Origin: Tribonema minus
Taxonomy: Eukaryota > Sar > Xanthophyceae > Tribonematales > Tribonemataceae
NCBI GenBank assembly: GCA_017506865.1
Contig: JAFCMP010000058.1
Span: 305,628-369,627 of the forward strand
DNA: 64,000 nucleotides
Reading direction: 5' to 3'
Shown here piece after piece: positions 985-62,800 of this stretch. The translations under genes and the position numbers were made by a program. Position 1 is the stretch's first letter, and each line of letters starts with the position of its first letter. The notes below the pieces were generated by a model. That model worked only from the letters and a program-made list of their open reading frames with translations. It did not search any database and was not told the origin of the DNA.

Positions 985-3900
985 TCAAGTTGGGGGGACC
1001 ACACCTGCGCGTGCATCGTGGCCTCCGGCGCGGCGCTGCACGCATGCGGCCTTCACCGCCGCCATCACCGCGCGCAGTCCCGCATTGGTCTTGATGCCCT
1101 GGCGATGGCAGACAAGCACGTGCACGGCGCTGCCGTTCAGGAACAGAACAAACCCGACCCAGCAAGGATCATCAAGCTATCACATCGAACGGAATCTCTC
1201 AACAAGGACTGCGCCACTACTTCCACAACATGGCTACTTTTTGCTGCCACAAAAGCACTAGCAGGCCGCCCCCTGCAGTGAAATCAGGCGGGCCGGCGAG
1301 CGCACCCGACTCGCTGGGCCCTGAGCACTGCCGCGCCCGCCTGCAGACCTGCAGCAGAAGCAAATGCGCGCGCGAGAGCAGCGAGAGCAGCGCCGCTCAG
1401 CGCATGTGGCGCGGCTCTGCGCCGCCGGAGGCGTCAGCAGCGCTCGGCACTGCGCGCTCCGCTGTTGGCGTGACGGTGCACATGCGTCCTAACCCTAACC
1501 CTAACCCTAAACGTAACCCTAAACCTAATCCTAACCCTTTGGAGGACTCAGATAGATGACCACCGCGCACGAAGGTCCATGGCAACCGCAGTGCTTCCAC
1601 AGGGTTAGGGTTAGGGTCAGGGTTAGGTTTAGGGTTAGGTGTCACACTCTTCTCGCAGGGGGTCTGCCATGCGGTGCAGTTGAAATAAACCCCACCCGCC
1701 ATGAGCCCCACACTCTGTAGCGCGTGACAGACGAGAACCATGCGGCCTCGCCTCATGTGTAGGTTGGTGGCATCGCGATGCTTCTTCTCCCGCCAGGCCC
1801 GCATTCTGTCTGCGGGGTGTCCGCAATCCGGCGCAATTGAAGGAAACTCTCACCCGCCACCTACATAATCCCGCTTTGCCCAGGACATCTACCGCACGCA
1901 GGAATTGTGAAGGGGCAGGTTCACGCGCCACGAACACCGCCACTGGCGGTCCAGCACGGCGGTAGGTTCATGACGCAGGACTTGAACTTCAACTTCAAGA
2001 CCTACAAAGCGCGTCACCGCCGGCGGCAGCTGCACGCCCGCCACCACACACGAGCGCACGCACCTGCGGATCGGCGTGGCTGCCCGAGCACGCGTGCCCC
2101 GCAGTGCTCAGCGCGCGCAGCACGGCGCCGCGCCCCGGCCGCAGGCCGCGCACGCGCGCCGCGCGCGCCGTCGCCGGCAGCGCATGGCTCAGCAGCGCTC
2201 CGCGCAGCTCGCCGGCGAGCGCGGCGAGCAGCGCGGCGAGCACGTGCGCGGACGCCAGCGGCGGCGGCAGCCGCGACGGTGGCGGCGGCGGCGGTGGCGG
2301 CGGCGGCAGCGGCGGTGGACGGCCGCTCGCACGCGGCTGCATAAGGGGCGGGCTCATGGCATCCGCCATGGCCTCCCATGAAGGATCATCTGTTGTTGCA
2401 TGCGGCGGCGCCGGCGGCGCAGCGGACGTGCTGTCCGCTGCGGCGCGCGACGGAGGTTCTGTGGCAGCGGCTGCAACAGTGGCAGGCTCATCGACAGCGG
2501 CTGATGCGCCCCCACCGGAAAGCGGCAGCAGCGGCGGCGGCGGCAGCGGCGCGCGGTGACGGGAAGAGCGCTGCTGCGAGTCGCCACGCCCTGGCGGCGC
2601 CGCGCCGCAGAGGGGCGGCTGTGAACGGGCAATGCGCTCCCGCACCCTCGCCAAAAAGTCCGCGTCGTAGAGCGGCCCTGCCCAGATGGGACCGTACGCT
2701 GCGGCGGTGCCGCTGCCGCCGCCGCTGCCGCTGCCGCCGCCGCATCCGCTGCCGCCGCCGCCGCCACCGCCCCTGCCGCCGCCGCCGCCGCCGCTGCCGC
2801 CGTCGCCGCTGCCGCCGCCGCCTTCGCTGCCGCCGCCGCCGCCGCTGCCGCCGCCGCTGCCGTCACCACCGCTGCTGCCGCCACCATTGCCGCTGCAGCC
2901 GCCGCCGACGCCGCCACTGCTGCCGCCGTTGCCGCTGCCGCAGAAGTCATTTCCTTCAGTGCTGTCATGGCGCTGTATTGTGAAGTCGCAAGCGCCGCGG
3001 TAGTCTGTGACGTTTACCCGTGCGAGCGGTTCGGGGGGCGGCGGCGAGGTTTCGCAGGGCGATGCGCCGGTTTGACCTGGGGTGATGGCATGGTGCAGTG
3101 AGACGGAGCAGCGAAGGTTTGGCATAAGCATCGCGCAGAGCAGGCCGTTCGATACGCAGTTACGTAGGGTTAGGGTTAGGCTGCTGCCATGTCCTACTCT
3201 GGTGTGTCATATACGCCCTGTGGCGGCCATGCTGGTAGGGAGCGTGATCATCTGCATGCGGTGTGTGTGTCGACACGCACCAAACGCACTTTAAATCTCT
3301 ACGTGATTATGATGTAGCCAGTCTTAGCGTACGTGTCAGCTTGCCACGAGGGGCTTGAACAAGGCCATGGGCGCGGGCGTATTGCAGAAAACACACACAT
3401 GTTGTCATGAGAATCGTGTTCAGGTCAGTTCTTGCATTGCGGGCAGCGGTGATGGTTGTGTGTGGGGTCAGAAACAGCACACAAATGAAATTAGCTGCCA
3501 ATGGTGCTGAGCGGTCGCTCGCCGCTGCCTGGGGCCCAGAGCATCTCTATGTGCAGTAATACCTGTATGTAATGATTTTGAATGCGCATGAGACACTTTC
3601 AAGCCGTCCAAAGTACATTCGACTCTGGTGGCAAGCTTAGAATCCTCTGTCTGGGCTTTTTCGCACCCTAAGTGACATGCTGCGGGGCAGCAGCGCTTGG
3701 GCCTACAGACCCAATCCGAATGGTGCCACGATGGCACCGTCACTGCCAGAGCACAGTGTAATGCAGTAGTCCCTACATGCGCGATCCAAACTGACCCAGT
3801 CGACAGCAAGATGTGTCTGCATGAGAGAGCCGCGTGCACCGTCAAATGCGCGGCACACTTGCGATGCCGCTGCAGTACCGATGCCTCTCGCGCGCGCGGT

Positions 3901-6900
3901 TGCAACAACGGCAACACACGGAAAGTTACGTGTACGTATGGCCGCGCGGCAGCCCAAACTGTACTTGATGCCTGGTATCTTGGTGTATGCTTCAGAACTA
4001 CTTTAGTACTTAGAGCAGAATTATGTCTTGACGTACACTTCACAAGTAGCACTTGAAAAAGTGCTTGACGTCAAGATCGAGCAAGCGTGTATGAAACGCT
4101 ATATGGCTTTGAGCCAGCGCGCCCAGGAGCAATCTGTGAAAGATCCTGAGCCCCTCCTGAACCATCAGGAATGCCCCATATTCCACATCGAGACACTAGC
4201 AAACACATAGAAGTACATGCCCTACAGAGCAACGCTGGTGAATACACAGCGGTGCAAAGCTGTTTGCTCAACTTGTTGGTCATTTCTTGAAGCTGCACAT
4301 CCTGATATATAGCGCTCGGATGTCCAGATCAAGCAAGCGCTCGTGAGACGCTCATCAAGATAGTAGTGAACGAAGTCCACGACAGCAGTAAACCAGGTGT
4401 ACTATGGAGCGCTGCTGTGGATACACAGATACATACATGCCCCGCAGAGCGGCGCTGGTGGCTACGCAGCAATTCATACATGGTTGCTCACGACAGCAGT
4501 GAACATACAGGTGCACCATGGAGCGCTGCAGTGGATACGCAGCGATTCGCAAATGAGATGTCATCTCTGTGCTGGCAGCTACCTGCGAGGGCTGGCGCGT
4601 CGCACTCGGCGTCGTCCGCCATCGTGACGTGCAGCGATTCATGATCTAGTTGCTTCCTGTGCCCCAAGTTCCACATCGAGACACTAGGAGGTACATGGAA
4701 GCACATGCCCCACGTAATGCGCTGGTAAATAAACAGCGATCATGAGCTATTTGCTTACTGTGCCGGCGATCACCTGCGAGGGCTGGCGCGTCGCACTTGG
4801 CGTCGTCGTCCGCCGTCGTGACCCACGCATAGAAGCCAGTCTTGTAAATCTAAGATTTCTCGCACCCATAGTGACGTGTTGCAACAGGGCAGCGCCTGGG
4901 CCTACAGACCCCAACCCGAATAATGCCTCCATGGCATCACTGACAAAGCAGAGCTACCTGCATGGGTTGGCGCGTCGCACTCGGCGCCGTCCGCCGTCGT
5001 GACGCGCAGGAACACGCGCACGTAGAACTGCAGCGCGACGCACACAAGCGGCTGCACGCGCTGGTTGTTGTCACGGGGTCATTTGCAAACAGAGAGAGAC
5101 ACAACAGAGAGCGGGGGGGGGGGGGTGGAGGTTGAGTAAATTCAGGCCTTGTTTGACGAGGGCGCATGGCAGGTGAAGTTGAAAGTGACGCCGAAGCGGT
5201 AATTAGTTCATCTTCAAGTTGGACTGATGGCATAGTGGTGTGAGCTGATGCGCCGCGACATCGGAGGGATGTATGCATGTGCGGCGAAGAAAGCGGATGA
5301 GCCGCGGCCGGTGGGACAGGGTCAGGGTTTGAAATCTAGACTGAGGGTATGGGTTACGGACAGGGTTAGAGTTAGGGGTAGGGCGCACGGCACAACAGGC
5401 AGAGCCACAGAGCGGTGACCCCAGGACTACAGGTCGTACTGACCAGTCGCTGCGAACGTCCGCGTGAGTGTGCAAGCCGGCGCTGAGCGGCCAACAGCGC
5501 TCGTCGAGCGCACGCAAGTTGGACTTGTACACTCCTACTTCAGACTCAGAGGGGTGTGGGCGCGTTGAACTTAGAACTCTGATTGTCAGCCTGAATCTTA
5601 CTCAAACCCGCTGTCATTGCTCAGTATGCCTGGCTGCGCAGAAACGCCAGCTCTACCACTGCGTATGTGCGCAACGGACCGGCAGCATTCCCCGTCCCCG
5701 TCGTTGACATCTTCAAGTTGAAGTTCAATGCTGCCAGTTTATTCTGTGTGCTGCCAATGGAAACACGCTCCATGCGCACACCAACTGCTCGACGCCGTGT
5801 GCAAAGAGGAAAAAGCACCAGCGTCTCACTGCGCTCACCATCTAGACACGCTGCGCATCCGATTTGACTGTACGACACCCTGAGAAACCAAACGGCACCA
5901 GGTAGCTGCGTACTTCAACATGTGCTGAGGTTCAACAACACCCTCCATGCCGGCAACCGACCACTCGACCCCTGTGCGAAAAGAACAAAGTACTAGAGCA
6001 GCTGCGCACTCAAACGCACCCGTCCCTGCTGCCGCGCCGCTGCGGCGACGGCGCGCAGCAGCACGCGCAGCGCCACCTCCGACGACGCCATGGGCGGCGG
6101 CCAGCAGGCGTACGTCGCTGCGCACGCGCGCGCTGGCCGCCCGCAGAGCACCTGCATTACACAAAGACAACGTTATGAGTGGTTATGATTCAGTAATTGG
6201 CGTGTGCATGAGCTCGAGCGTTTCGGCGCTGCCACCTGCCCTGAGTGCACAGCGCACCGGTTTAAAAAAAAAACAATTTCGGCATCATGCGTGGTCATGT
6301 AGCGGAAGTGGTTCAGAGAAGTAATGTCTACATTGAAGTGCCGTTCCTTACTTCAATGAAATCTCAGCTGCGAGAGCTGGGTTTGATCAAGCGGCCGGTC
6401 AACACCTCCCGTTGAATTACTCTCAGACATACGCTGAAACTCGTGCAATGAGCTATGTGACCCAACCCTAACCTCACTCTAATCCTCACCTCTATGAGCG
6501 TGCGGAGCGCCTCGGCGTTGCCTCGAGCCTTAGGCGTGCATACCTTTCGTGACGGCAGCGGGCTTGCAAAGGCCTCCCATGTACATCAAGGTGACTGGAT
6601 ACCGTGGTTAAAGCAGCAGGCCTCAATTTCTCTCTGGCGCCCTGCAAGGCGCGCCAATGCGTCGCGACCTTCACGCCATCTCAGTGCACCAAACCACTTG
6701 CAGTGGCGGCGTTGACGTCAATGGCCTCACTGCAGACTTCAACTTGAAGCAAGCACTTCAATGCATGGGTGGCAGCAGCACGCCTCCAGCCGCGCAAGCA
6801 TGCATCGTCGCCCTCAGCAGGCGCTCAGCAACTGCCATTTTCCCTGCCTGCCTGCATGTCAGTGGCGGCGAGAACTCGAAGGCACGGCTCGCGCAAGCGC

Positions 6901-8341
6901 GCCGCAGCATTGCACGCACGTCATCCTCTGCACTCGCCGGCTAACTACTCACCCACGATGGTGGCAATGCGTGAGGGTTTTTGCAGTACGACTCTGGCGC
7001 AAGCGACGACTCTGGTGCAAGCGCGTCTCAGTACCGTAACCGCACAAATGTTGTGAGGGTCGTCTACTGTACATACCCACCTGCATGTCGGTGGCGGCGA
7101 GCGCCACGACGCCGCCGTCGGTGACCGCCGCCAGCGCCGCCGCCGCGAACGGCATCGGCGAGCCAAACGGGTCCACGTCCACAAAGTCGAACGCGCGCGC
7201 GTGTGCCCGCAGAAACGCGCACGCGTCGCCCTCGTGCACTTGGAAGTGCGCAGTGGCGACAGCAGTGGCGGCGGCGGCGGCGGCGGCGGTGGCAGTGGCG
7301 GTGGCGGTGGCGGTCGCTAGGCCGTTGGCCCGCGCGTTGGCGGCGATGGCGGCGGCGGCGGCGGGGCTGGCGTCGACGGCGGTGACGCTGACGCCGCACG
7401 CGGCGCGGCGCGCGTGTGATGGCTGCGGCGGCGCAGCCGTTGCTGGCGACGGTGCTGCTGGTTCGAGCGGGGGCGCTGGCTCTGGTGCTTGCTGCGCAGA
7501 TTCTGTAGGGGCTGGAGGTGTTGGCGGCGGCAGCGGCGATGGTGCAGTGGCTGATGCCGCTGGCGCTTCCACTGCCACTGCTTCTTCTTCGGCTGGTGCT
7601 GTTGATCTAGCTAGTTCTGCCTGCGTTGGCCAGCCACACTCAAGGGCATAGCGCAAGGCTCGTATGCCGCACCCAGCGAGGGCATCGCTGCCATGGACGA
7701 GAACGGAAGAAGTGCAGCCAATGGACGGGAGTGTCACAGCTTGCAGAGAACAACTGCATGTGAACCCGGCTTTGGAATTATATGGCTGCTCAGCTTGACG
7801 GCACCAGAATTGTAAGACGGCCAGATCAATGTCGTGGCTAAAGAGGAGGTCAAACATGCTTGCTGCTGCTACGCATTGTTGAAGAATTCCTAGAGCAGCT
7901 TGCTGGCTGCTACGCATTGTTGAAGAATTCCTAGAGCAGCTTGCTGGCTGCTACGCATTGCTGAAGAATTCCTAGAGCAGACACATACTGCTGAACTCTC
8001 AGTAGAGTTTTCCAGCCACAAGCATGAAAATGAGGCTTTTTGCAAACATCACGCTGCTGACTTCAAGCATTTTTGGCGTTCATGTACAGGAGCGAGACGA
8101 CCGGATGCTCCGACTGCAGCAGGTATTGTGAATTGTATGCTTATAATAAGTTTCACACGTACCAAACCCGCAATGGCTGCTGCTGTGCCCTTTCCAGGGA
8201 CAGTGTCTGCAGCACCGCCACGCTCAAATCCCTCTGCAGAAGCTGATGGGAGTTGAAGAAGACACCTTTTGGTATCGGCAGCAGCACTGCCGCCCCCTCT
8301 CGAATGACAGCAGGTTGTGGAGGCTGCTCATCTTCGCTCAT
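985..8341 (-). CDS. TRM1: TRM1, tRNA (guanine(26)-N(2))-dimethyltransferase
   Basis: Uses SAM to dimethylate guanine-26 of tRNA. Exons supported on the minus strand: 8341-8163, 7687-7081, 6151-6020, 5060-4958, one ending at 2064 (5' edge unresolved, between about 2750 and 2990), and 1098-985 with the stop at 987-985. The first four exons join in phase and the last two join in phase. The N-terminus reads IREGAAV...FFNSHQLLQRDLSVAVL, followed by CDALAGCGIRALRYAL, the SAM-fold segment VTAVDASP and the family signature DFVDVDPFGSP. Exon 3 has ASSEVALRVLLRAV, exon 4 has RVQPLVCVALQFYVRVFLRV, and a later exon has YGPIWAGPLYDADFL. The C-terminus is GSHADPQ joined to GIKTNAG. An exon for the Cys-rich segment usually found between FYVRVF and the GPIWAGP block was not located between 4957 and about 2990. 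A long Gly/Ser tract precedes GPIWAGP. Several exon-4 fragments are duplicated in the following intron. Confidence 0.9.
1488..1642. repeat. Facing CCCTAA and TTAGGG runs in the last TRM1 intron
   Basis: CCTAACCCTAACCCTAA-type units at 1488-1540 are followed by GGGTTAGGGTTAGGG-type units at 1601-1640, so the two runs form an inverted pair around a 60 bp loop. They lie between the TRM1 exon ending at 2064 and the last exon. Confidence 0.85.
2690..2945 (-). repeat. CCG/CGG microsatellite coding for Gly/Ser in TRM1
   Basis: An imperfect CCGCTGCCG-type trinucleotide tract of about 250 bp. On the TRM1 strand it reads as an open Gly/Ser run just before GPIWAGP. It may be a coding expansion or the end of the preceding intron, because the exon's 5' boundary is not resolved. 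Confidence 0.7.
4155..5012 (-). repeat. Partial tandem copies of TRM1 exon 4 3' end and intron
   Basis: The last 50-55 bp of exon 4 with its donor (original about 4956-5012, ending ...ECDAPTHAG) recur at 4769-4822 and 4578-4631. Both copies encode a CDAPALAG ending followed by GT. Flanking intron sequence is also repeated: the text around 4160-4245 resembles 4660-4735, and 3650-3760 resembles 4856-4955. In gene direction all exon fragments lie downstream of the intact exon. Confidence 0.8.
5113..5125 (-). promoter_or_regulatory. C13 tract upstream of TRM1 exon 4 acceptor
   Basis: Thirteen G on the plus strand read as C13 on the TRM1 strand, about 50 nt before the acceptor at 5061. It matches the C-tracts found before acceptors of the plus-strand genes, so the bias follows the transcribed strand. 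Confidence 0.5.
7858..7980. repeat. Three tandem copies of a 41 bp unit in TRM1 intron 1
   Basis: Three near-identical units contain CTACGCATTGTTGAAGAATT and end in CCTAGAGCAG. They differ by only a few bases and include the TTGAAG core seen in many introns of this window. They lie between TRM1 exons 1 and 2. Confidence 0.85.
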
Positions 8342-8651
8342 GCGGAGCTCAAGTATCGTGCTGGTATTGAAAGATGGATTCGCGGTGCTAGAAATGATGT
8401 GCTTGGTTGTTGTTATTTACAGGTATTTGTGAGCACCAATTATGCTGCGAAAGCCCCATGGAATCGTTGCCAACCTCTAGATGTACGGAGGAGGCTGCAC
8501 TCGCCACCGATACCTCAGATGAACGGATCTTCAACTTCAACTATCCTTCGTTCAACGGTCCAGGACATAATATACAACTTCGGTGTTCATCGTTGCTGGG
8601 AGGTGCACCGGTGCTGGTGCAGATGGGTGAAAGCAGGCGACCATAGCTGCT
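8342..8651. promoter_or_regulatory. Divergent intergenic region, probable bidirectional promoter
   Basis: The TRM1 start codon (8341, minus) and the GPAA1 start codon (8652, plus) are separated by only 310 bp, so both promoters and 5' UTRs must lie here or overlap the neighbouring gene. I see no clear TATA box near either start. An ACTTCAACTATCC-like segment sits at about 8530. Confidence 0.5.
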
Positions 8652-11600
8652 ATGGCGGTGCAGACGCGTCTGCAGCAAAGGCAAGCAGCAGAAGCAGCAG
8701 CAGCAGAAGCTGCTGATGCGGATGTCCCAAGATCTGATGCCGCTGCAGTGCAACAGCGTGCAATAGACGTCAACGATGAGACTGCAATCACACCAGATGC
8801 CAAACCCCAGTCGACAGGAGCTGTAAAAAAGCTGGAGCAGGCGCTGCGAGCAAGCTGGTGGCTTTACGGGTTCAGCATTATATGGGTCGTGTGTCTGTTC
8901 CCAGCTGTCACCATATCTACAGGCGAGCTCAAGCCGCGAGGCACTTACTTCGACGAAAATGCCATGTTGGTGAGTTGCCAGAGCCAAATTTCAAGGCTGT
9001 GCAAGATGCATATCATGCTTCCATAAACGTTGCCTTTGACATTCGGTGGTTACGGTCCGTGGAGCTTAAAAGAGCAGCCTGCTGTGTACGTTTAGCTCAT
9101 TCCGATTATACTTTATACTTGTAGCAGGCCCGTCAAAGCTGCGCTATGCACGGTTAATTGGTTGCAGCTGCAGCAAGCATACGCGTCAGATGGTACGCAG
9201 CCATGGCCGTCCGCCCAATGTGCAAAGCGGGTTGAGGCACAAGCTGTTGTCGACCGCCGCGGCCATCCGAGGTCCTGAAGGTGCCAACGTGTCACGCCCA
9301 ACTGTTTTGACGGAGCGTAGCGCGCTGCCTTACCATCGCCGCAGTGGCAAAGCAACGTTTTCTTCTGCTGCGTCAGCGGTCGTGAATGCAACGCAATCAT
9401 GATCAACAGCTGAGAGGTCAGCACGGGCCTGCTGCTGCAGTTTGAGCAGCACAAGGGAAACAGACATGATTTGAATGTGAACTTCGCAAACAAACTTCAG
9501 GAAAGCAGCAGCGGGGTACATCACTCCTTGACTGGTTCAGGCCAACAGCACTAGGATCAGCTACGCGGCTGCAACAGCTGGTCAGACCATACATCACTCT
9601 GTTGTTGGAAATGCGTACGTAGCCTTTGTGCCTACCCCTGCCTGTTTTCCTGGTACTGAAGTGATTTTTGCACACTAAACGGAGGCGCTACTGCTGAATA
9701 CGCCGCACCTGCACCTGCCCGCTCTCCGCAGGTGCACCACACGCGCGCGCTCATGCCTGCCGCCGCTGCGCTGCAGTGGGCGCACCCGCACGCACTGCAG
9801 TCCCGCCTCAGCCGCGCTTCCTCACCTCTTCTCACGACTCAACGCCGCAACACGGAAAAGGAAATTGCTGACGCGGACGACGCCTGGCTGTGCTCAGAGC
9901 TCGCAGCTCTGGACCTGCCCTGCCACACGCATACCTACCGCAGCAGCGGCAGCAGCGCCGGCAGCAGCAGCAGAGACGCCTACAGCCTCTACACGGTCCT
10001 GACGCCGCAGCTCGCGGCGGACGGCAAGGAGTGCCTCATACTCACCGCGCCGCTCTGGGGCGCTGCCGCTGCCGCGGGGGGCCCCCCCGATGACGGCGGC
10101 GCCGGCGATATGCGCCCCTCCGGCGGCGCAGCGCTCGTGCTCGCGCTGCTGCACGAGCTGCGCGACCGCGCGCCGTGGCTCAGCTTCAGCGTCGTCGCGC
10201 TCTTCACCGACGCGCCGCGCGCCGCCGCCGCCGCTGGCACCGACGACGACACGTGGCGCGCCGCCGCCGCCTTCGTAGACGACTATGTTGGCACTGGCGG
10301 CGGCGGCGGCGGCAGCGTGGTGCGGCCGCAGCACCTGCACCGCGCTGGCGCCCCGCGCTTCGCCCTGTCCCTGGACCTGCCCACTCCGCTGCCGCTGCCC
10401 GACGGCGGCGGCGGCGGCAGGGGGCGCGGCAGCGGCGGCGGCACCGGCGGCGGCGGCGGCGGCAGCGGCGGGTGGGAGGCGGCGCGCGTGCTGACGGCGG
10501 GCGCGGCGGGCCAGCTCCCCAACATGGACCTGCCCAACGCGGCGCTGCTGCAGCTGGCGGGGGGCGGGGGGAAGGTCGCGGTGGATGCGTGCGCGGGGGG
10601 TTTTCGCGTGGGGGAGCGCGCCGTCGGCGGCGGCGTTGGGGGTGAAACGGGGGGGCGGATGGGGGGGGGAGAGGGCGGCGAGGTGGGCGGGTGCGAGGAC
10701 TTGTTCTCAAGGGCGCACGCGGCGCTGCGGCGCGCCGTCCCGATGCGCGGCGGCGGGCGCGGCGCGGCCTACGCGGAACGGCTGTTCGCGCTGCTCGGCG
10801 GCATGGCGAGCGCGGCGCTGGGCCCCTCCGGCCCGCACGCGCACTTCCTGAGGTAACTACTCGCTTGGTTGCTGCAGTCATCGAGGGGTGCGCTCGCCCC
10901 ATGCGCACGTCCTGAGGTAACTGCTTGCTCGGTGATTGTGGGACTCGAGGGGGGGTGCGTGCGCGCACTTTTGCGATGGGGTTACCGCAGCGCGCATGGG
11001 GCTGCAGCTTCTTTGGCCGATGCCCGGCGCAGGCATGCAGGAAGTGAGTGCCCGGTAACAGTGGTCAAAGAGCGGTTGTCTACGCTGCTTAACGTCATGG
11101 CGGGTGCAACGCTGACGCCTGAGCCCTCTTGCTTAGCATGTCTGCAGCGGCGGCGGTCGGTTCTCGTGCGGCTGCATCTGCAGCTCCCCTCTAGATGTGG
11201 CTGCAACTCTCGGTGCGCCAAGACGCCAGCTGAAACACGTGCATGCTTCCAGTACCTGACGTTACCAAACACCCTTTTCGCTGCAGCACGCGACCGCATC
11301 GCGTCGCCGCACCGTTCGCGCGTGCACTGTCGCATGTCGCCTGAGCTTCAGCGCTGCGGAGCATCCAAGCCAACACAACCCTGCATCACCGCAAGCACCC
11401 GCGCCCTCGGCATTCCCTACTAAGGCCCCGCCCTGCCCTCACGCCGCGCAGCACCGCTCCCCGCGCGCAGGCACTCCATAGACGCCATCACGATACAGGG
11501 TCTGCCCCCCCCCGCCGGCGCGCCGCTGAGCTGGGGAGCGCTCACGTACGAACGCGCGGCGGGCGCGCTGCTCGGCCTCGTTCGCGCGCTCAGCAACGCG

Positions 11601-14705: not shown

Positions 14706-17700
14706 ATGCGATATCATCAGCAGCAACCACAGGCTCGCCCTATAACCCGAGCTCAACTCAGAGCTCAGCAGTCCGCAATTGTGGAGCTCTCTGCGCTGTC
14801 GAAGAACAAGGCACCGCATGGGGGATCCGAGGGCGATTGCGACTCGGACTGCGACATCGTAGAGCTCACCGCGGAGGACGTACTGCAGCACCAACTGTAC
14901 GAGGCTTTAGAGCTGAGCAGCAGAGATGGCGAAGCCACCACCAGCTTCAGCAGGGCTGCTGCTGGCAGCCGCAGCAGCAGATGCAGCAGTGGCAGCAGCA
15001 GCGCCACTGGCGGCGGCGGCGGCGGCGCGAAGCGCCGCGCCGGCCTGTGCGAGCACGGCCGCAAGCGCTACTACTGCAAGCCGTGCAGCGGCGCCGGCAT
15101 CTGCGCGCACGGCCGGCGGCGCGCGGCGTGCAAGCAGTGCGGCGGCACGAGCGTGTGCGTCCACGCGCGCGACCGGTACCACTGCAGGTGCGCCAGCGCT
15201 CCGCACGGCTGTCGCTTATCAATGAGATTGTCATGTACTTGTAAAGAGTGATTGCCGTGATTTGAGAGTGGGATTTGCGGTCGTTCTTCGCGGATGCGTA
15301 TAGCCTGCAAGTGTGCAGACGTGCCGGAGTCGCTGTGAGCTCGCACAAAATTCCCTCTGGGGGTACACGTGCGACACGTAGTGTGTACCGGAGACCCCGC
15401 GTTGCACTGGCCTCCCCAAAACCATATGTGCGTGCGCATGGCGCGCTGCTGTGCTGTGCCAGCAGATTGCCGTAGATGCTCATGTTCGTTGTTCTGCAAG
15501 CGGCCCCTGCATCTACGCATGGATCATGGACGCTTTTGCACTGTCATCTGCTGTCTGTCGCGAGCACAATCCAAAGTGCGCTATATAGTCGTGCGTGTCC
15601 GCCAGCTTTTGCCCGGCGGCTCGCCTCATCTCTCACCTGGAGAGTACGGGGATGGCGGCGGCGGCGGCGCACATGTCTGCCGCCACAGACGCAGGTCAGT
15701 GGCAGCGCCGCGCACGCCTGAACCAAGTCACCACATCAGCTTGACTGCGCACTTCGGGTTGGGGTTAGAGTTAGCTAACCCTGACCCTTGTGCGCGGTTT
15801 ACCTCTGACCCTCGCACACGCTGAGTCGATGCTCCACAGGGCGCGCGGTGGTGCTCAGCTCCGCTACCACAAACGCTGGCGTTGCCAGTGCCGCGCACAC
15901 AAACGCCAGCTGCAGCCCTCACTCCGATAATTGGCTTTGCCGCTTTTGCTTTGCTGCACACGAGACGGTCTTCAACTCCAACCCTCTCACCGCTCTTGAA
16001 GTGTCCCAGAGAGCGCAACCGCAGCTGCTGGCACTTGCAGTGCCGCGACTTCATACATGGAAAACTGCACACCAAATCGGCACCTCCAACCGGTCGCGCT
16101 CGCCTGCACTTCAACTGTGACTCTCACACTCGTACCCCGGACGCCTCCCTCCACAGGGAGTGCGGCGGCGCGCAGTTCTGCCACCACGGGCGCTGGCGCT
16201 ACCAGTGCTGCGAATTTGTATACTTCCAAGTATGGATCTGACCTTCAAACCAGATCGGCGCCCTCGCTCGTTTGCACTCGCATGCACTTCAACTGCGCTT
16301 CTAGCACCTCCACCTGGTTGCCCTCGCATAAACTCCAACTGCAACTCTCACATTTAGCACCTTAACGCCTCTCTCCACAGGGAGTGCGGCGGCGCGCAGT
16401 TCTGCCACCACGGACGCTGGCGCTCTCAGCGCCGCGAATCCGTGCATGGGAATCTGATCTGCGAACCAAATCGACACCTCCACCCGGTCGCATGCACTTC
16501 AACTGCGCACTTCAACTGTGACTCTCACACTATTACCCAAAACGCCTCTCCCCAGAGAGTGCGGCGGCGCGCAGTTCTGCCACCACGGACGCTGGCGCTA
16601 CCAGTGCCGCGACTGCGGCGGCGGGCGCTTCTGCGTGCACGGCGCGCGCAAGGGCTTGTGCCGCGAGTGCGGCGGTGGCAGCGGCGGCGGCGGCGCCGGC
16701 GGGCGGTGCCGCCACGGCGCCGAGCGCTGCAGCTGCCGGTAAGTCACATATTCAGTTTGCAAATTGAAGCGCGTGTTCAATGCGATTTGAGGAGTTCATG
16801 CACTGCCATGTGTGCCGAAGCATGTGCTGTGGCACGGACGGTCGCTGCCTTGGGCCGTCCAGTGGTGGCAACAAAAAGCTGATGGTGCGCTTCACGAGCT
16901 CTCTGAGGCATGCGTGTGCTCTTTTTCATCGTGCACAAGGTTTCCTGCTGTGCTTGACCGAGCGGCACCAGGCCCTCGCAGTCTTTACCGAGTGGCCACG
17001 GGCTGTGGCAATTCCTAACAGCCAGCTTCAAGAGCCTTCAGCAAGTGCCTGCACGCAACAACGGCTGACAACTGCCGCTGCCTGCGGTATCTGCAGTTGA
17101 GGTGCGTGCGGTCTGAGCCGCCTGCGGCACGTGCACTGTCGCAGTGACTTCTGGCCTCAACGAATCGACGCGACCACCGGTGATATCACCGCTCACGTCC
17201 GGCGACGCTCGCCGATCGCTGCCGCAGCCTTGCTCCATAGCAACGTGCCCCCCCCCCCCCTGTCATTGGTCAGCAAAGCCGGTGGCTGCGCTCGCACATT
17301 GCCAACAGCGCCACCTGCGCGTCTGGAGAGTAGGTTGCCACGCAGTGGCTGCCGCTACGCGACGGTGTCTGTTACTGCGCCCAAGCTGCACACGCGGCCA
17401 GCGCAGCGTTTGCGCGGACGGCGGCGCTTGCGACTGCACCGACCAATGCCCGATGCTGTTCCCGCACCGCGCGCCGTTTCTGTCGAGTGCACGCACTGCC
17501 GAATGCGTGCTGGACATCTCAACCATCAAGTCGCACCTCGCAGTGGCCCCTGTCATCGTGCATGCGCGCAGACCGCGGCTCGAGCTGATGCAGCGCCCGC
17601 CAGCGCCGGCGGCCGGCGCTTCCAGCGCACCGGCTGCAGTGCCATACGCTGTCCTATGCCACTCGGCACATCTCACCCACGAGCCGTGTCTCTCGCAGCA

Positions 17701-44300: not shown

Positions 44301-47300
44301 TGAATGCGCTTGCGCCAACCCTAGGAACTCTCTATATCGCTCTGTCCAAAGCACGCTCTCTCTCACACACACACACCGTGCATCGTTGTGGCCCCGCCGC
44401 CGCGTGAGCTCGAGCGCGCCGTGCAAGCCGTGTTGATGTGAGCATGGTGATGGTCAGCATCGGCTGCAGCACATGTGCGGCACTAAGGAGTGTGGGCGCC
44501 CCGCCTGCATCCATCATCTTGGACGCACGTGCTTCTGTACCGGTCGTGCCACCGTGCGGGCTTTTTTGCAGAGCCTCCGACGTTCACCGCGCACCGACCA
44601 GCGACAGATGCAGTGCCTCACCCCCCCCCCCCCCCCCCCCCTCACTACATCGTTTACCCAACTTCATCAGGCGCTGCCGTACGGAGCGCACCACTGCGTG
44701 GGGTTCCGCGCGGGGCAGGAGGCGTCGGAGCAGGCGCACCAGCGCATACGCGACAACGGCGCGCTCTTCGCGCAGCCGCTGCGCCAGATGCGCATGTCTG
44801 TGTCCACCAAGATGCTCAAGAAGAAGGTGCGTCGCACGGCAAACTTCAATGCAAACTTCAATGGGTGACGCCCCGCGCTCTTCGCACAGCCGCTACGCCA
44901 GATGCGCATGTCCGTGTCCAGCAAGATGCTCAATAGAAGAAGGTGCGTCGCGCGTTGCGAACTTCAACGGGTGACGCCCCGTGCTCACCACGCGGCAGAA
45001 GTGTGCATGCATAGCCTCTGTGACTGCTGAGTGTCACGCATAGTCCTGGCGTTGGCGCAGTTGTGATTTTGCACCGCACACTCCGTTGAATTCATTCACA
45101 TCAGTGAGGAAGCAAAGGGAGGCCTGGGGGGAAGTTGGGAGCCTTCATGAACTTGTGCTTGAACATGACATCATTGAAGTTGACCCACCGCCAGCTCTGA
45201 GCATCTCACGCCCCCCTGCGCGCGACTGACGCCCCCCCTCGCACTTCGCACTCTCGCTGCCCCTCACCACGTTGCAGGAGAACCCCAGCTTCCTGTACGA
45301 CCCCAACCTCTGCATGGCCTTCGCCAGCAAGCTCGACGCGCGCAGCCGCCAGATACAGGACACCATGCTGCCGCTCCAGGTCTTCTACGAGTCGCGCATC
45401 GCGGCGCTCGACAGGTGAGCGCTGACTAGGTGTTAAAGTTGAAGTTGGAGTAGCATGCATGCCGCGCAAGTCGGAAATGTCTGTAACGATAGACAAACGT
45501 GCTGCCGCTCCAGGTCTTTTACGAGTCACGCAACATTGCGGCGCTCAACAAGTGAGTGTTGAAGTTGAAGTAGCATACATGCCACACAAGTTGGGAACGT
45601 CTACGTAACAATAAACACCATGCTGATCGTCTACTAGTCGCGCACAACAGGGGACCACTAAGTGTTGCAGTTGAAGCAGCATGTATACCACGAGTCTCTG
45701 AGATTGAGGTACCAGAAACTCAGGCGGGCAGCATGACACAAATGCGCTCGCGGAGGCCGCAGAGCTTCTTCCGTGGTCGTTACTTCCTCTATCGTGCTGC
45801 CCGACTGTACCACGTTTCAGTTGCCAACTTTGAACAGCGATGTAGCACCTGTTAGAGAGGACGCATATGGTCAACTGAGAGAATGACGAATCGTCCTGGT
45901 TTTTCAATGTGATGGATGACTGGTACATAACGAGAGAAGTAGATGCAACAACATGGCTGAAATCTTCTCCTCTGTTGGCGAGGGTGCAAGCGGTCAAACA
46001 AGGTGCACACACCAACAATGCTCTTGCTGCAATCCCGCACTCCATGGCAGAGGAGCTGCCGACGCCATGCCTCGTGTGACAAATGGCGCACGCGCAGCAG
46101 CCCGCGCAGCACCTAACATGCATTTTGCTGATGCGGCGCAGTCGGACGATGCACGTCATTGTCCATCCTCTGATGGCCCCAGTCAGACTATGCATGTCAA
46201 TGTCTATCGTGTCAGACTGATGCTGTCAGTAACGGTCACTGTGGACCTTGAACGGCACCGACACTTCTTCTCATGACCGCTGGGGTTCAACTGGTGACGC
46301 TTCCCTGGCGCAGGTACATGTCCTTCTGCGTCATGTTCCACAGCATGGCCAAGGACTGCTGCACGCCGTGGCTGCGCCCCGCGTGGGACATCGCGCGCTC
46401 GCAGGTGGGTTGAAGTTGAAGTTGTCAGACAGACCGGGAAGGAGGAGCGTCAGGGGTAGGGGATGAGCAGTACGCATGGAAAGGCGCAATACCTACGAGT
46501 TCTCCTTTGTCGCAAACTAAAACTTGGAAAAAAGTACCAGAGGAGGTCGGGGGGTAGGGGTAGGGGAATAGGCTTTGGCAAGGATAAGCATGCATCTAGA
46601 GGCATCATAGGGCATTTTTGTGTGCTCTTTCCGCACGCTGTCTGCAATGCCAGTCCTGTGTTCATGGCGTCCAGCAGTTTCGAGCCGTGCCCCACTCCCG
46701 CCACGGCATTCATGCATGACTTGCCAGGAGCAGAAAGCGCCAAGAGAAGTACCTGCAGCAGCGGTAATTGTTGCTTACGCGTTCCTGGTCCTCACGGCTG
46801 AGGGGCATGGGTGGTTGAGAGCAAGTGCGCTGTTGTCGTGTGGTCCCGTTTCACTGCCGAGCAGTGGTGCACGCCCGCTGGGCGCATTAGCAGTGTCCCT
46901 CGCGTTGCAGGCGCAGCACTGCTCTGCGGGCCAAATGTCCTAAACACAGTGACTGTTGCATCGTCCAGCGCAAGTAACGAATTTCATGCTGAGGGCTGTG
47001 CCAGGGACGCCCTGACAGATGCCCGTGTGGTGTCCTGGTGCAACACTAGATTGGTATACTTTGGCGCAGAGACATGCTTTGAAACATTGAAGTATAAGAA
47101 GGGTGTTGATGTACCTATGCACTGTTTGAAATAAATCAGCACAAGTGAGGGTTTGCTCTGCGCAGTATCCTCACTTATGGCAGTAGATCAGCGACGCGTA
47201 CGCACAATGCTGACTCAGCGGCGTGGCGCTTGTGCTGTGCGCTGCTGCGCTTGCGCGTGGCACCTACCACGATGCAGCAGGTCATCACAGCTTTCGAACG

Positions 47301-50470: not shown

Positions 50471-50600
50471 GCAAAACTCCGGCTGGCGTGTCCGCTACTC
50501 TTGAAGTTGATGCATTTGAAGGTGACAGTTGCAGTAAGTCTCGCAAAACGAAAGAGCTCATCATGGCGCCAACCTAGCATACTGTCTGGCTGCAGTGCTC

Positions 50601-56600: not shown

Positions 56601-59600
56601 GGCACGCGTCTCGACGCGCGTCGTGCCTGCGCCCATGCGCATCGTCGTGGTGGGCGAGGGGGATGCAAAAGGGGGCGGCGGCGGCGGCAGCGGCGGAGAT
56701 GCGGGGCGCTCGGGGAGATGTTTGCGCGGCCCGCGACGCCGCTGCAGGACCGCGCCGTCGCCCTTCAGATGACGGAGCTGACGGCGGCGCTGCTGCGCTC
56801 GTGGCGCGTGGATGGGGCGCTGCCGCCGCCGAGCGCTGCTGCTGCTGCTGCTGATACTGCTGCCGCTGCTGCGGGAGACGGAGGGGAGGATGACGATACC
56901 GCAATGTGTCTTTATGAGGACGGCGGGAAGGCGGGCGAAGGGGGGAAAGAGCGCTGCGGCGCCTTGCAGGTGGGTTTGCGCTCCTCAGCATGGTCCCAGA
57001 AGGGAATCAAAAAGGCTAGTGGACTACTGTAATGCACTTAGCGGACAGTACAGTACAGTACACTGTACAGTGGACAGTGCACTACAGTACACTCGATGAC
57101 AGTACAGTACACAGCATGTACAGTGGACAGTGCACTACAGTACACTCTATGACACCACAGTGCACAGCATGTGCTCTGAGAAGCACAGAGGTGGCTGCGA
57201 GCAACGGCAGCGTATCAGCCCTCGCCAAACATGTCAAATGCTTGCATGTACTCATAGCGGACGTGTGTGTGCAGCTGCTGCACAGGCGGCGCTCCACCCT
57301 CTGCCCACAGCCCCATTCCGAAGCATGGCGGTAGTGCAGCTGCTCAGCCACCAAACCCCCATTCGCCGCGTTGGCGTCGGCGCAGGTGGATGACCTAGGC
57401 CGCTGCGAGGTGCACATGTCGCTGCCGGACGCACACCTCCTCATCGACATGGCGCGCGCCGCCGCCGCCGGCGCCGCCGCCGCCGCGGCCGCCGCGCGCG
57501 CCGACGCCGCGCGCCGCCCGCTGCTGCAGCCGCCGCTCGCGCCGCCGCCGGCGCCGCCGCACGCGCCGCGCAGCCTGGCGGTGTCGGCGCGCGCCGCCGA
57601 CGCGCGCATCGCGCTCGTGAGCAACGCGCTGGGGGTCCCGCTCTTTGCGGTGGATGCGGGGGGGGTGCAGCTGGCGCTGGCGCGGGGGCCGCCCCCCGCG
57701 GCGCAGCGGGCGTCCCCCTCGCAGTCTCCGCTCGCCGGCGACGGCGGGCTGAGTGGCGGTGGCGGCGGTGGCGGCAGCGGCAGTGGCAGCGGCGGCGGCG
57801 CTGTGGCGGGCGCGTCGGAAGGATCGTTCCAGGCGCTGCTGTCCGTGCGGTACTTCAACCAGGCAAGGCGCGCGGCGCGCGAGCGGTGCCCACTCTCTGT
57901 GTTGGTCATGCACGCTCATGGCGTTGTTGACAGCTTCTGCTACTTGTGAAGCACTGCAAATGTCAGAGAACACGTACGGCATGCGCCTTCGTATTGTGAA
58001 GGGTGTTACTCTGGCTGTCGAGTGCTGCCGCCGTGCGCTTCAGGCGTTCGACGCTGCTGCGTGTACGTCCAGCCCCCGAATGCGCTGCTTCCGTGGCGCA
58101 CCAGCTGAGCCGATCGTCCGTGTTGGTTTGTGGTCATTGTGCCTGACTCGATCGCTGAGGTACATGCAATGATTGAAGGGGCAGGGGTGTGAGGCAGCAG
58201 AGGCGACCTCCATCATGGTCGATCATAGGGATGTGCACATACATGCATACGTGCATACATCCTGTGACATACATAAAGTGCACCTGCAAGGTGTGAAACG
58301 TGCGCTGTGAGTCCCGCGTGACGCTGCGCTCGTTTGGGCGACCCTCTATTGTACGGCCGTTGCTGACGGACAGCACCTTGCGGTGCACGCTTATGCGCAT
58401 CTGCACGAGTCTGCGCACTCGAGCAGGCCTTGCGTTTGCGGCAGCTAAAACCAACGCAGCGTTTCTGGGGGTACTGTGTGCTACTACTCATGATGAGAGC
58501 CGTCCAGTGCCCGTGCTCGTACTCTTTGTGTGCTGCCACGTCGCCGCCGGGGCGGGGTGCGCGTGGCCTTCAGCTCCACCAGTACACTTCAACAGTACCC
58601 TCCAACAACGTTGCTGGGCGCTCTTGCCAGCGCGTGCCTCTAGCACACGTCACGCGCTTGACAAGCGACACAACGAACGGCCGCGCACTCGCTGAGGCGT
58701 GCCGTCATCAACTTCAACTTCAACTTCCAAAGACTTCCTTGCGACCCTGCAGGGCCTGTGCCGCTGGGAGCCGGCGCTGGAGGCGACGCCGCTCGTGGTC
58801 GCCTTCGGCGGGGAGGCAGGGGGGGACGGGGGCTTCACGCGCATCGAGGCGACGGTCATACATACCGCCAACGTGAACGTAACGCACGCGGCGGCGGAGG
58901 CAGCGCGCTGCGCGGCGGCGGCGCTGGGCGCCGGCGACGACGTCGCCAGCGACGGTGAGCGTCACTTGTTGCAGTTTTGAGAAAGAATTTGTGGTATGAA
59001 AATGCTCAGTATGCACTGCTCGCACTTGAGCAGTGCTGCAATGTACATGCCGTGGCAAATGCAGAGCGGGAGCGTCGCATGGTGGGTGTAATGCGGCTTG
59101 GCCATCTGAGAGTAGTTATCCTCTCCGCCCCTTGTTTCTGCCCCCGTGCCATCCCAGGCTGTGCGGATCTCACTGCAGCTCTACGCCTGCTCGCATCCTC
59201 CGCCAACCACCCCCTGCACACACACACGCTCCCTTCCACAAAAAAAGCCTCGGCAACCCCGCACCGCCACACCGTGTGCCCCCCCCCCCCCCCCACACAC
59301 ACACACACGCGCGTCAACGAGTGCGGCGCCGCTTGCGCTGTGGCTAGATGGCGACCCTGCCGTCGGTCGCCGCTGCAAGACAAACCACCGCCTGCGCACA
59401 CACACTCCCCTCTCCCCTCATCAACCCCCTCATCAACCCCCCTCCGCCCGCCGCCGTGCCGCCGCCCTCGCCTGCCGCAGGGCGCGCGCGCCGCCCGCGC
59501 CGCCGCCGCGTCGTCAATGAGTGCGGCGCGCCGCTCGCGCTGTGGCTCGACGGCGACCCCGTCGTCGGCTCGCCGATGCAGGACGGCGCCGACGTCGCGC

Positions 59601-59856
59601 TAGAGCCGCGCGAGGAAGAGGGCGTGGCGGCGGCGCGCGGCGGCGGCGGTGGCGGCGACGGCGACACGGCGCCGCGCCGGCGTGCGTCACGGTCGCAGCG
59701 CTCCCGCAGCAACGCTCAGTTCAGGTGAGGCGCGGGGTGTGTGGGGGGGAGGGGGGGGTCAGGGGGGGGGCTGTTTCACCGCACAGCGCTGCTGCGGAGG
59801 CGCGCGTCGCGGACGCAGCGCTCTTGCAGCAACACTCAGCTGAGGTGAGGCGCGCA

Positions 59857-59888
<32 letters not shown>

Positions 59889-62800
59889 CGAAGTCACCGT
59901 GCAGCGCCGCGGCGGCGGCGCGCGCCTCGGACGCAGCGCTCACGCAGCAACGCTCAGTTCAGGTGAAGCGCGCAAGGGGAGGGGTGGGGGGGATGTGGTG
60001 TCACTGCGCAGAGTTTGTGTTGATCGCATGGTGTGAAGCGCGCTGGAGGCGTGAGTGCAGCGCGCGGTGGCGGCGCCGGCGGTGTCATGGTGCGACACCG
60101 AATGCTCTTGTGTCGGAATCTCATGCTTGCAGGCGCTCCTGATCTGGACCTGCCTCTCGCCCCACCTTGTCCAGAAAAGAAACGCAGCATGCTGCAGCAA
60201 GTGCGCATTCGCTCTGCTGCTGCCACCCCTGACGCTCTTCCCGATCCCCGCCCGCCGCAGCGCGCTCGACCTAGGCGGCAGCGGCGGCGGCGGCGGCGCT
60301 GCCCGCGGCCACTTTCTCGCCCTGGCCGCGTCGCTGGGACCGCACCTGTACGAGTCCGTGGCGCCCATTCTGATCGACGTTGGCGTCGGCGCGCACCACG
60401 TGCGGCTGCGCCGCGCTGCTGGCCGCGGCGGCGGCAGCGGCGGCGGCGGCGGCGGCGGCGGCAGCAGCAGCAGGGGGCACTGGCACTCTCCGTCCGCGCC
60501 CGTCGCGGGCCCGCATGCGCAGGTGACGCTCCCCGCTGCAATCGTCATGTGCGATGCGGAGACTCGTGCTGGCGTTTGTTGAGGCCTACCAATGCCGGCC
60601 TGTTGCCATCTGGCGCACGAAGTGTTGAGACTCGTGCGACTCAGAGTGAGCGCGTGCCACTCTCTACATGTTTGCATGTAGAGTATAGTCTGCTGCCACT
60701 TGCAAGCGTCTGTCTGCTCGGTTTGCACGCAGACTGTGCCACTCCCAATTCGACGTGTCGTGGACTCCTCCTCTCCTGTTCTGTCTAGTGTGAGGTCATG
60801 TAGCTTGGCCAGGCCCACCTTTAGTGCGCCACGCGTCGCACAGCAAGTCAGCGCTGGAGGCAGCTCCACGGCGGCGCAGCCACGGCACATGCACGCGCAG
60901 CACCAATGCGGCAGCGCTCTACCCCGCGCCCCCCCCCCCCCCGTGCGCGCAGGCGCCGGACGCGTCGTCCGCCGCCGCCGCCGCCGCGCTGCCGCCGCGC
61001 TGGCTGCTGCTCGTCGCAGAGGTCGCGCTGAGAGGTCGCGCTGAGCGCCGAGGGAGCGCGCACCATCACGCTGCGCTCGCGCTTCACGGTCGTCAACGAC
61101 AGCGGCGTGCCGCTGGAGGTGTGCCTGCACTGCCCCGCGGTAGGCGGCAGCGCGGCCGGCGGCGGCGGCGGCGGCGGCGGCGGGGGCTGCGCGCGCCGCC
61201 GCTGCGGCGCGACTTCCTGCTGCTTCCAGGTCGGTAGTATGCGTGCTCAGAGACACTTGCAGTTGCATAGAGGAAGCATCAAGTATGATGCGCCCTTGAC
61301 AATCTGTGGCGCTGCATCACGACTGATGCTGGTTTCACCGTGTTTAACAGCAGCCGAGTGCCACTAGTGACATTCATACGCTGCTGTGCGGCTGCCGGCA
61401 GCGCAGCCTGCTGTTTTTGTGGTACACTAAGTACTGTATTGTGTACTGTGCATGTACTGCAAACTGCACGCTGTCGCAGTACAGGCCATGCCATCGTAGG
61501 CGCATTTCTTAGCTTTAGGGTTCAGATAGGGTTAGGGTTAGGGTTAGGGTTAGGTTAGTGTCAGCGTCAGGGTAGGGAGGACACCGCCTCACAATAACTG
61601 TACTTCTAGACCGCTCCACAGCAGCGGCGATGACCACAGTCGCCTGATGCTCGGGTGCACTCGCGCTGAAGTCCGGCTTCATGTGATGTAACAGCACGCG
61701 ATGGAGTGGTTCCAAGAGTGCTTTTTGTGTTTGCAAGCCAAGTCACGTGCGCTTGTAGCCGCCGCGTCCCCTGTGCTGACCTAGGTGCTGCAGTTGCATG
61801 TGGCTGAGCCACTTTCACATTCTCTGCGTCCCCATGCCTCTGCTACCCCCCCCCCCCCCCCCCCTCGCCCCCCAGCCCACACTGCAGGCGCAGCGGTCCG
61901 CGCGCTGCTGCCGCCAAGGCTGCTGTGTACTAACATCAGTAATTCGCATTGCTGCTGCGCGCTTCGCACGCACCAACCTGCAAACTGCAGGCACCCATTT
62001 ATAAACCGATACCCCCCCCCCCCCCCCCCCCCCCATGCCCCCCGCAGCGCCGCCGTCGGCGTGCCGCTGCCGCTGCTGTCGCCATGGCTGCGCGTGCTGG
62101 CACGCCCCGCGGACGCCTCCACGCGCTGGGGCCCCCCTCGTACCGTCGCTGCGCGACGCGGAGGAGCGCGCGCGCGCTGCGGCCGCGATGCCGCGTTTGC
62201 CGTGTGCGCGCCGGATGCGCGCGGCGGCTCGCTCTCGCGGCTCGCCGGCGCCGCCTCAGGTCCGCGCGCCGCTGCTGCTGCTGCTGCTGCCGCTACTGCA
62301 GCTGCTGCTGCTGCCGCTGCTGCTGCGGCGGCGGCGGCGGCAGCAGTGCCGCTGCGCGCGTGCGTGCGCTGCTGGCCCTGTGGTGGCGTGCTGTGTCGGG
62401 CTGATTAGGCCGCACCACTACGTTTCGCCGCTTCTCACGGCAGCGTTGATGGGGCCAAGAAGTCATTTCTGCTTGCAAGCGCATTGTGCATAATTGGCAA
62501 ATGCTGCAGCAGCTCACAATAGCCCTAATACGCTCTCCAATGTCACATGGCGGCAGCAGCAGGCGGACCACCACTTGTGACAATACATTATGTGAGCCAC
62601 GGGATTTGGCTGCCCAGCTCACGCCATAGCAGGATAACTGGATTGATATGGCGCGGCAAAGCCCTGAAAAGGGTGTGTATGGGTTTGCGCAAAGCACTAG
62701 ACATGGTGGATAAATTGCCTCCACTGCAGTGCTCATCTCCACCCCCCCCCCCCCTCCTCCTCTTTCCCCCAGGTACAACGCTTGCGGCGATCCTGGCGGC

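Follow-up and report, generated by a model that had tools for sequence, protein, structure and literature searches.

The 64-kb window analysed here (the whole stretch of Tribonema minus contig JAFCMP010000058.1 from position 305,628 to 369,627) is GC-rich eukaryotic DNA, and one of its genes carries, in the introns next to most of its exons, partial copies of the ends of those exons. Rebuilt through anchored splice sites, this gene comprises 32 exons (20379-47610, forward strand) in a single open frame of 4464 nucleotides (nt) that encodes 1487 amino acids (aa); of its 31 introns, 30 start with GT and one with GC, while 30 end in CAG and one in TAG. The guanine plus cytosine content is 69% in exons, 49% in the filler between copies and 56% in the remaining intron. 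We take the product to be a SIS/class-II glutamine amidotransferase-like protein, a name borrowed from its homologues and from sequence motifs: it starts with MCG and keeps class-II amidotransferase-like motifs. No Pfam domain was matched by the full 1487-aa protein at an expect value (E) of 0.001 or less. The best protein match is Tribonema minus JKP88DRAFT_264782 (hereafter P0001), 54% identical across 99% of the region searched, and a pairwise alignment of the two proteins runs end to end at 63% identity.

The initial annotation had described copied exon ends in five genes of the window. Those of the amidotransferase gene are listed below, all on the forward strand, with the means of detection in brackets: blastn searches with the exons, comparison of the window with itself (self-BLAST; BLAST, basic local alignment search tool) or Tandem Repeats Finder (TRF).

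20379-47610: SIS/class-II glutamine amidotransferase-like gene, host of most exon-edge arrays
21067-21487: exon 2 (21012-21163), 3' end, copied twice downstream with junctions at 21303 and 21487 (blastn)
22865-23070: exon 4, 5' fragment of 35 nt upstream of the intact exon, AG lost (blastn, self-BLAST)
23130-23911: exon 4 (23036-23216), 3' end of 87 nt and four downstream copies with junctions at 23360, 23532, 23752 and 23911 (blastn)
24983-25259: exon 6, 3' end, copied once downstream with loss of the GT (blastn, self-BLAST)
26598-27072: exon 8 (26504-26646), 3' end of 49 nt and three downstream copies (TRF, blastn)
27846-28093: exon 9, acceptor and 5' end, copy upstream (self-BLAST)
29003-29364: exon 10, 3' end, copied twice downstream (TRF, blastn)
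29733-30096: exon 11, downstream duplicate of the 3' end, comprising about 13 exon nt and intron (self-BLAST, 66% over 192 nt)
30119-30366: exon 12, acceptor and 5' end, copy upstream (blastn, self-BLAST)
30943-31606: exon 13 (31545-31706), 5' end, three upstream copies (blastn)
31815-31844: exon 13, match on the downstream side to bases 71-100 of the exon (blastn, E=0.002)
31954-32159: exon 14, 5' end, one upstream copy (blastn, self-BLAST)
32267-32745: exon 14, 3' end, two downstream copies (blastn)
32965-33173: exon 15, 5' end, one upstream copy (blastn)
33457-33489: exon 15, 3' end, a single weak copy downstream (blastn, E=0.001)
33827-34211: exon 16, 5' end, one upstream copy (blastn, self-BLAST)
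34953-35286: exon 17, 3' end, two downstream copies (TRF, blastn)
36267-36640: exon 19, 5' end, one upstream copy (blastn, self-BLAST)
36700-37057: exon 19, 3' end, two downstream copies (blastn, self-BLAST)
37942-38374: exon 21 (38275-38532), 5' end of 100 nt, two upstream copies (blastn)
38637-39485: exon 22 (39402-39613), 5' end, copied five times upstream, the copies being of two classes (TRF, blastn)
41742-42385: exon 26, 5' end array, upstream (blastn, self-BLAST)
42415-42594: exon 26, 3' end, one downstream copy (blastn, self-BLAST)
42792-43019: exon 27, 5' end, one upstream copy (blastn, self-BLAST)
44760-44986: exon 29, 3' end, one downstream copy (blastn, self-BLAST)
45366-45691: exon 30 (45278-45414), 3' end, downstream copy (blastn, self-BLAST)

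When the exons were searched against the whole window by blastn (cut-off E<=1e-2), 42 matches fell in adjacent introns, every one of them direct and in an intron flanking its source exon; none of the 42 was a whole-exon, inverted or reversed match. All 19 five-prime fragments lie upstream of the intact exon and all 22 three-prime fragments downstream, exactly as had been claimed, and the single internal match (31815, exon 13) is also downstream and looks by eye like a gapped 3' fragment. All but one of the matches (41/42) end within 5 nt of an exon end. The companion claim, that fragments always bring their acceptor or donor along, holds for most but not for all, the AG being retained in 17 of 19 five-prime and the GT in 17 of 22 three-prime copies. 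Left out of the 42 are 453 'far' matches and two inverted matches inside their own exon; the simple-sequence-rich exons 15 and 20 produced 396 of the far matches, an entropy cut placed 447 of them in low and 6 in high complexity, and three are of edge type, short and low in complexity. With the edges seen by self-BLAST only, a hand-compiled list has edge copies at 20/32 exons and in 20/31 introns; 5' and 3' copying are not associated, either per exon or per intron (P=0.72 and 0.72). Over the whole window, self-BLAST gave 83 local direct pairs against 8 inverted ones, none of the latter inside the amidotransferase gene. The set that we tabulated for measurement holds 39 copies in 21 arrays (without the weak exon 15 3' copy, the exon 4 5' copy and the exon 9 and 11 arrays). 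In this set copies are spaced about 100-315 base pairs (bp) apart (median 150), their exon-derived part measures 20-100 nt (median 59) and an array has 1-5 copies (median 2); TRF periods in five exon-edge arrays are 121-291 bp.

A comparison of full units shows that the repeats span exon plus intron sequence, with breakpoints that vary even inside one array (those of exon 22 lie at bases 57 and 84). Repeats that are direct only and whose units join exon to intron bear out the proposal that short head-to-tail duplications cross the splice junctions. The strict polarity was also offered as a finding in its own right, which it is not, because geometry forces it once duplication is head-to-tail: when a unit of intron plus exon start is doubled, the remainder of the exon follows the second unit alone, and the extra fragment is left upstream with its acceptor; at a donor the same event gives the mirror image. 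Polarity is thus good evidence for head-to-tail duplication and against dispersed insertion, and carries no further information.

The arrays are also concentrated at exon edges. Self-BLAST delimits 27 direct arrays in the amidotransferase gene, of which 24 touch an exon edge and 3 are intron-only; requiring at least 15 nt of exon edge gives 23 edge arrays, to which the exon 11 array was added by hand. Simulated duplications reach exon edges in a fraction of 0.385 under random placement, and of at most 0.467 if exon-derived parts are allowed to decay more slowly, so that the observed excess has P between 1e-7 and 6e-6 for 24/27, and between 8e-7 and 4e-5 for 23/27. After exons and copies were masked, the same cut-off left 12 arrays, 9 of them at edges when assigned by hand against an expected fraction of 0.30-0.335 (P 0.0016-0.004). 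The excess of arrays at exon edges is probably real. The tabulated arrays make up 6230 of the 22768 intronic bases of the gene, which agrees with the suggestion that introns grow in this way; against it, introns with copies are not significantly longer than the others (mean 774 vs 663, P=0.44). TRF repeats cover 2541 of the 22768 intronic bases (11%), and none of the median intron.

The copied junctions look as good as the real ones. In splice-site matrices built from the 31 real introns of the gene, 21 decoy donors have a median of 9.2 bits, against 8.4 for real donors (P=0.60) and -2.8 for other intronic GT; the corresponding medians for acceptors are 6.0 bits (18 decoys), 7.0 (real, P=0.67) and -1.1 (other intronic AG). 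Sixteen of the 21 decoy donors and 14 of the 18 decoy acceptors score above the tenth percentile of real sites. The expectation that these introns are filled with decoy splice sites is therefore supported, in so far as decoys score like real sites. The intact junction is the outermost one: in a series of donors it is the first and in a series of acceptors the last, which restates the polarity in other terms; judged from the scores, the spliceosome must pass over inner sites that would be equally good. Exon definition, in which a fragment presents one site without a partner, may be the simplest account of decoys that are ignored. It may also account for what is missing: no whole-exon duplication is seen, where simulation leads one to expect about 4.8 (P=0.008). 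Exon-internal duplications, of which 2.2 would be expected, are absent as well, a difference that is not significant (P=0.11). It had been argued that the duplications survive because one complete exon remains. As an explanation of their survival this is incomplete, since a whole-exon copy would leave one complete exon as well; the absence of a partner splice site explains the missing whole-exon copies better.

The copies are 79-100% identical to their source exon by blastn. Over the 39 tabulated copies, 280 mismatches separate copy from intact exon, of which 174 are transitions; they fall 71/74/135 on the three codon positions (about 792 sites each) and comprise 123 synonymous, 153 non-synonymous and 4 stop changes, against 80/192.5/7.5 expected in the absence of constraint. 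The ratio of synonymous to non-synonymous changes is 0.80, and by our arithmetic about 0.83 would be expected if the copy were free and the intact exon changed only synonymously. Changes private to one sequence could be assigned in 11 arrays with at least two copies (for exon 22, in the beta class only): copy-private changes are 33/36/58 by codon position and intact-private changes 5/2/13, and in exon 4, which has four copies and the most private changes, the copy-private changes are 9/10/10. Gaps occur in 15/39 copies, and the four 3' copies of exon 4 are free of both stops and gaps. Apart from a synonymous excess weighed below, the copies decay largely free of protein constraint and the intact exon stays constrained. 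That the copies are an assembly artefact appears unlikely, because they are 79-100% identical, differ mostly by transitions and change like unconstrained DNA.

Two arrays record exchange between copies. In the array of exon 22, a recent higher-order unit of 291 bp agrees with its neighbour at 218 of 220 sites (38820-39039), and both of its ends fall, by eye, in acceptor homology. The intact exon 22 joins alpha-class intron (97% over 103 nt) to beta-class exon (0.94 vs 0.79), a mixture to be expected from a crossover or a deletion at the acceptor. In exon 21, copy 2 agrees with the intact sequence at 99/100 exon sites and, by eye, at 9/15 sites of the nearest intron (P=1e-5); 29/48 of its aligned intron sites are identical to the intact unit. 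Expansion, contraction and homogenisation are shown by the exon 21 and 22 arrays and may be general.

We consider it quite probable that these arrays result from recurrent short tandem duplication and unequal exchange, tolerated since the fragments lack one of the two splice sites. On the evidence of the repeat units, short segments straddling one splice junction were doubled head to tail, many times, at most exon edges, and the differing breakpoints suggest that these were independent events. Unequal exchange or conversion between copies would then lengthen, shorten and re-homogenise the arrays, as exons 21 and 22 suggest. The fragments are pseudo-exons, decaying under little protein constraint beside an intact exon that stays constrained. 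With only one splice site of the pair, they would be ignored by an exon-defining spliceosome, whereas whole-exon copies would be spliced in and then purged by selection. The focus on edges may likely come from the constrained exon being the best-matched sequence in a drifting intron, and hence a continuing template for exchange.

Several results weigh against this account. (i), once the real detectability of intron parts is considered, 3 intron-only arrays are seen against 14.4 expected (P=3.5e-4; binomial P=0.0024), a milder excess at the edges. (ii), under a strict rule, in which both copies must abut a masked segment, the masked test places 7/12 arrays at edges (P 0.04-0.07). (iii), the edge statistics come from one gene, with array boundaries chosen by the analyst. 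(iv), synonymous changes are too frequent among the copy-private ones, with 53 where 37.7 are expected (P=0.006); staggered or sequential duplication from a slowly evolving exon would give such an excess, but weak protein constraint on the copies may also be at work. (v), intact and decoy units are identical at 1118/1249 exon sites against 864/1317 intron sites, with 656 gap columns in the latter, and decoys among themselves have an identity of 0.84 in exon parts against 0.71 in intron parts. Intron parts thus diverge and gap faster than exon parts predict, and a simple neutral decay from a single age was rejected on these grounds.

The second point, and the better conservation of exon parts, are also what one would expect if the same duplications fell uniformly over the gene and exon-derived copies merely stayed recognisable longer, the edge focus being an illusion of detection. 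The intron parts are separately detectable in only 9 of the 24 edge arrays, which goes in the same direction. Nevertheless, simulated constrained exons with neutral copies yield an edge fraction of 0.39-0.47, far from 24/27, and the masked, hand-assigned arrays keep their excess. We hold biased detection to be unlikely as the explanation of the edge focus, and yet the most serious competitor to recurrent duplication focused on exon edges.

Less plausible still is a trigger in the introns themselves, the motif TTGAAGTT/AACTTCAA, which would provoke duplication as a replication stall or as a mobile remnant. The 8-mers TTGAAGTT and AACTTCAA occur 62 and 53 times above a second-order Markov expectation in the amidotransferase introns. 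The motif reaches 5.5 per kb in filler lying between copies, has 1.45 per kb in the remaining intron and is absent from the 4464 exon bases; its 7-mer forms are commonest in the 40 nt that follow a donor (P=2e-6). However, the filler is itself duplicated, so that these counts are not independent; the motif lies within 60 nt of 6/14 donors with 3' copies vs 4/17 without; and the clearest recent event, that of exon 22, is bounded by acceptor homology. Hairpins of TTGAAGTT/AACTTCAA were considered as well and dropped, as the gene has few close pairs (5 listed).

We find it improbable that the copies are functional, as regulatory decoys or as cassette or mutually exclusive exons under selection. 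Decoy sites that score as real ones, exon 4 copies without stops or gaps, the synonymous excess and a second exon 30 end in the Tribonema protein model (see below) would all fit such a role, and 8/21 of the 3' copies could serve as an in-frame cassette vs 75/300 random intronic GT, a weak difference. Yet the changes in the exon 4 copies are spread evenly over codon positions (9/10/10), 15/39 copies are gapped, and the 123/153 synonymous and non-synonymous changes fit one free and one constrained copy. Coding selection on the copies is accordingly disfavoured by the codon-position and synonymous counts, the synonymous excess remaining. Intron gain by AG/GT duplication within exons, a model that would make the introns themselves exon copies and would suit the presence of exon-derived sequence with splice sites in introns, is scarcely credible here, as the units carry intron-derived sequence between copies and the 3' copies follow their own exon's donor and filler, unlike the layout of an exon-internal duplication.

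Exon-edge copies also occur in the other genes of the window, for which 13 exons with hand-set ends were searched for matches at most 3 kb away and low-entropy matches were filtered:

4583-5060, reverse strand: TRM-family gene, 3' end of exon 5060-4958, copied twice downstream
10831-10952, forward strand: GPAA1-like gene, exon 9732-10852, 3' end in a 64-bp tandem array (TRF and reading of the sequence)
15661-16738, forward strand: cysteine/histidine-rich (Cys/His-rich) gene, 5' end of exon 16556-16738, copied four times upstream (also by self-BLAST)
59308-59993, forward strand: VPS13-like gene, exon 59481-59724, 3' copies downstream (59791 and 59905) and an upstream copy (59308-59381)

The claim that all five genes carry such copies thus stands by BLAST for the amidotransferase, TRM, Cys/His and VPS13-like genes, and for the GPAA1-like gene through TRF and reading, its copy being below the cut-off in the exon search. 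In the VPS13-like gene the upstream copy fits the description only in part: it starts at exon base 27, lacks the first 26 nt and has no acceptor. The TRM-family gene has a PF02005 match at 6949-7950 (reverse strand), and downstream of its exon 7865-7081 (reverse strand) lies a single weak copy of the 3' end (21 nt, E=0.003). At the start of a TRM exon (reverse strand), TRF finds a 41-bp unit repeated three times (7858-7980, 97% matches), which contains an AG that by eye is a possible acceptor. The three coding exons of the Cys/His-rich gene match each other, and these matches include one of 3' type upstream (15009-15077, inside the exon labelled CH_1) and one of a whole exon (17816-17988, CH_3); in our reading these are paralogous coding repeats, and they were not counted as edge copies. 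Also uncounted are a weak internal match of exon 16556-16738 in an intron (16027-16050), four further internal matches of the VPS13-like exon, one of them inverted, and the internal matches of the GC-rich TRM, GPAA1-like and Cys/His exons. The names of the GPAA1-like gene, which has no Pfam match, and of the VPS13-like gene are those of the initial annotation; the first open frame of the latter, used as a query, found no related locus in viral contigs. TRF also reports telomere-like arrays of TTAGGG/CCCTAA type scattered through the window (1488-1644, 28526-28583, 44128-44161 and 61527-61577) and long C or G homopolymer runs (17741-17792, 47392-47441 and 59857-59888), the latter being possible replication obstacles.

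Homologous proteins help to tell intact exons from fragments. Fifteen copied segments of at least 14 aa were looked up in the Tribonema protein, where 13 are present once, that of exon 30 twice and that of exon 29 not at all; in three other homologues every one of the 15 is present once at most. As the copied segments are mostly single in homologues, the choice of the exons called intact is supported. A scan of 85 homologous proteins for tandem self-similarity returned eight positives, seven of which we read as low-complexity or non-conserved; in our reading, P0001 would be the only one to double a conserved segment. Its residues 1355-1392 are a tandem duplication of the 3' end of exon 30, and the same edge has an intronic copy at 45500-45551 in the window. 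By our hand list 14/31 donors of the gene are stuttered, which makes this coincidence weak by itself. The doubled end suggests either that fragments can enter coding sequence or that they may mislead gene prediction; indeed, exon-like fragments with good splice sites are easily mistaken for exons, and annotators should be warned.

It is tempting to speculate further that the stuttering of exon edges is a general and ongoing mode of intron turnover in GC-rich eukaryotes beyond birds, with exons as permanent templates and with fragments that occasionally become coding. We offer this tentatively and would not ourselves favour it. Exons held constant would act as templates from which arrays are re-seeded exactly at splice junctions; exon definition would make edge duplications invisible to splicing, and fragments that gain the missing site would become coding, as exon 30 suggests. 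More broadly, the arrays bear on how introns are filled, on how splicing ignores strong decoy sites and on how exon edges come to be doubled in proteins.

Two known kinds of sequence resemble these arrays in part. Whole-exon tandem duplication is a local head-to-tail copy of a complete exon with both splice sites; it shares local head-to-tail exon copying with the arrays described here, but none of the 42 matches in the amidotransferase gene is a whole exon. Introner elements are likewise intronic and carry splice sites, but similar copies are dispersed over many unrelated loci, whereas the edge copies of this window lie beside their source exon. Much closer is the exon or sequence stuttering of chicken dot chromosomes, in which lateral parts of exons, with their donor or acceptor, form imperfect tandems in the adjacent intron (1345 matches in 115 genes and 236 introns, the length of the introns being polymorphic), and for which meiotic conversion, or stress during the replication of GC-rich DNA, is proposed (Hron et al. 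2026, PMC12954441). Its authors give intron repetitiveness as the first of three main features, describe intron lengths that differ widely among individuals, propose an association with GC-rich coding sequence, and report no other vertebrate case except the gerbil, in the introns of GC-rich genes; the pattern there is alike in a rodent host, with data not shown in that paper. Among openly licensed PubMed Central papers, the terms 'exon stuttering' and 'sequence stuttering' were found in PMC12954441 only, and other wordings brought no algal case among the matches listed, judged by title and start of abstract.

The two systems agree in edge copies with the adjacent splice site, in direct but imperfect tandem repetition of units that measure tens to hundreds of bases, in the size of the exon parts (20-187 bp there, 20-100 here), in GC-rich coding DNA and in an intact coding sequence; over 90% of copies lie within 1 base of the exon border in chicken, and 41/42 reach to within 5 nt of an exon end here. 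They differ in density, exon copies being present in 190/5572 dot-chromosome introns (3.4%) and in 20/31 introns of a single gene here. Purely intronic expansion is expected to be far commoner in chicken, whereas 24/27 arrays here touch an exon. Simple repeats have a median coverage of 7-93% in chicken dot-chromosome introns, against 11% by TRF here, with none in the median intron, and copy number is 1-44 (median 4) there and 1-5 (median 2) here. The hosts are a bird and a stramenopile alga, and length polymorphism is shown in the former. A dense algal case would point to a process that recurs, not to a peculiarity of dot chromosomes, and would provide a tractable organism in which to find its cause. 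To judge by sequence comparison, the phenomenon in this window works like exon stuttering, but is denser at the edges and less repetitive elsewhere; a very similar phenomenon has been known in birds since 2026, and what is new is its dense occurrence in a distant organism.

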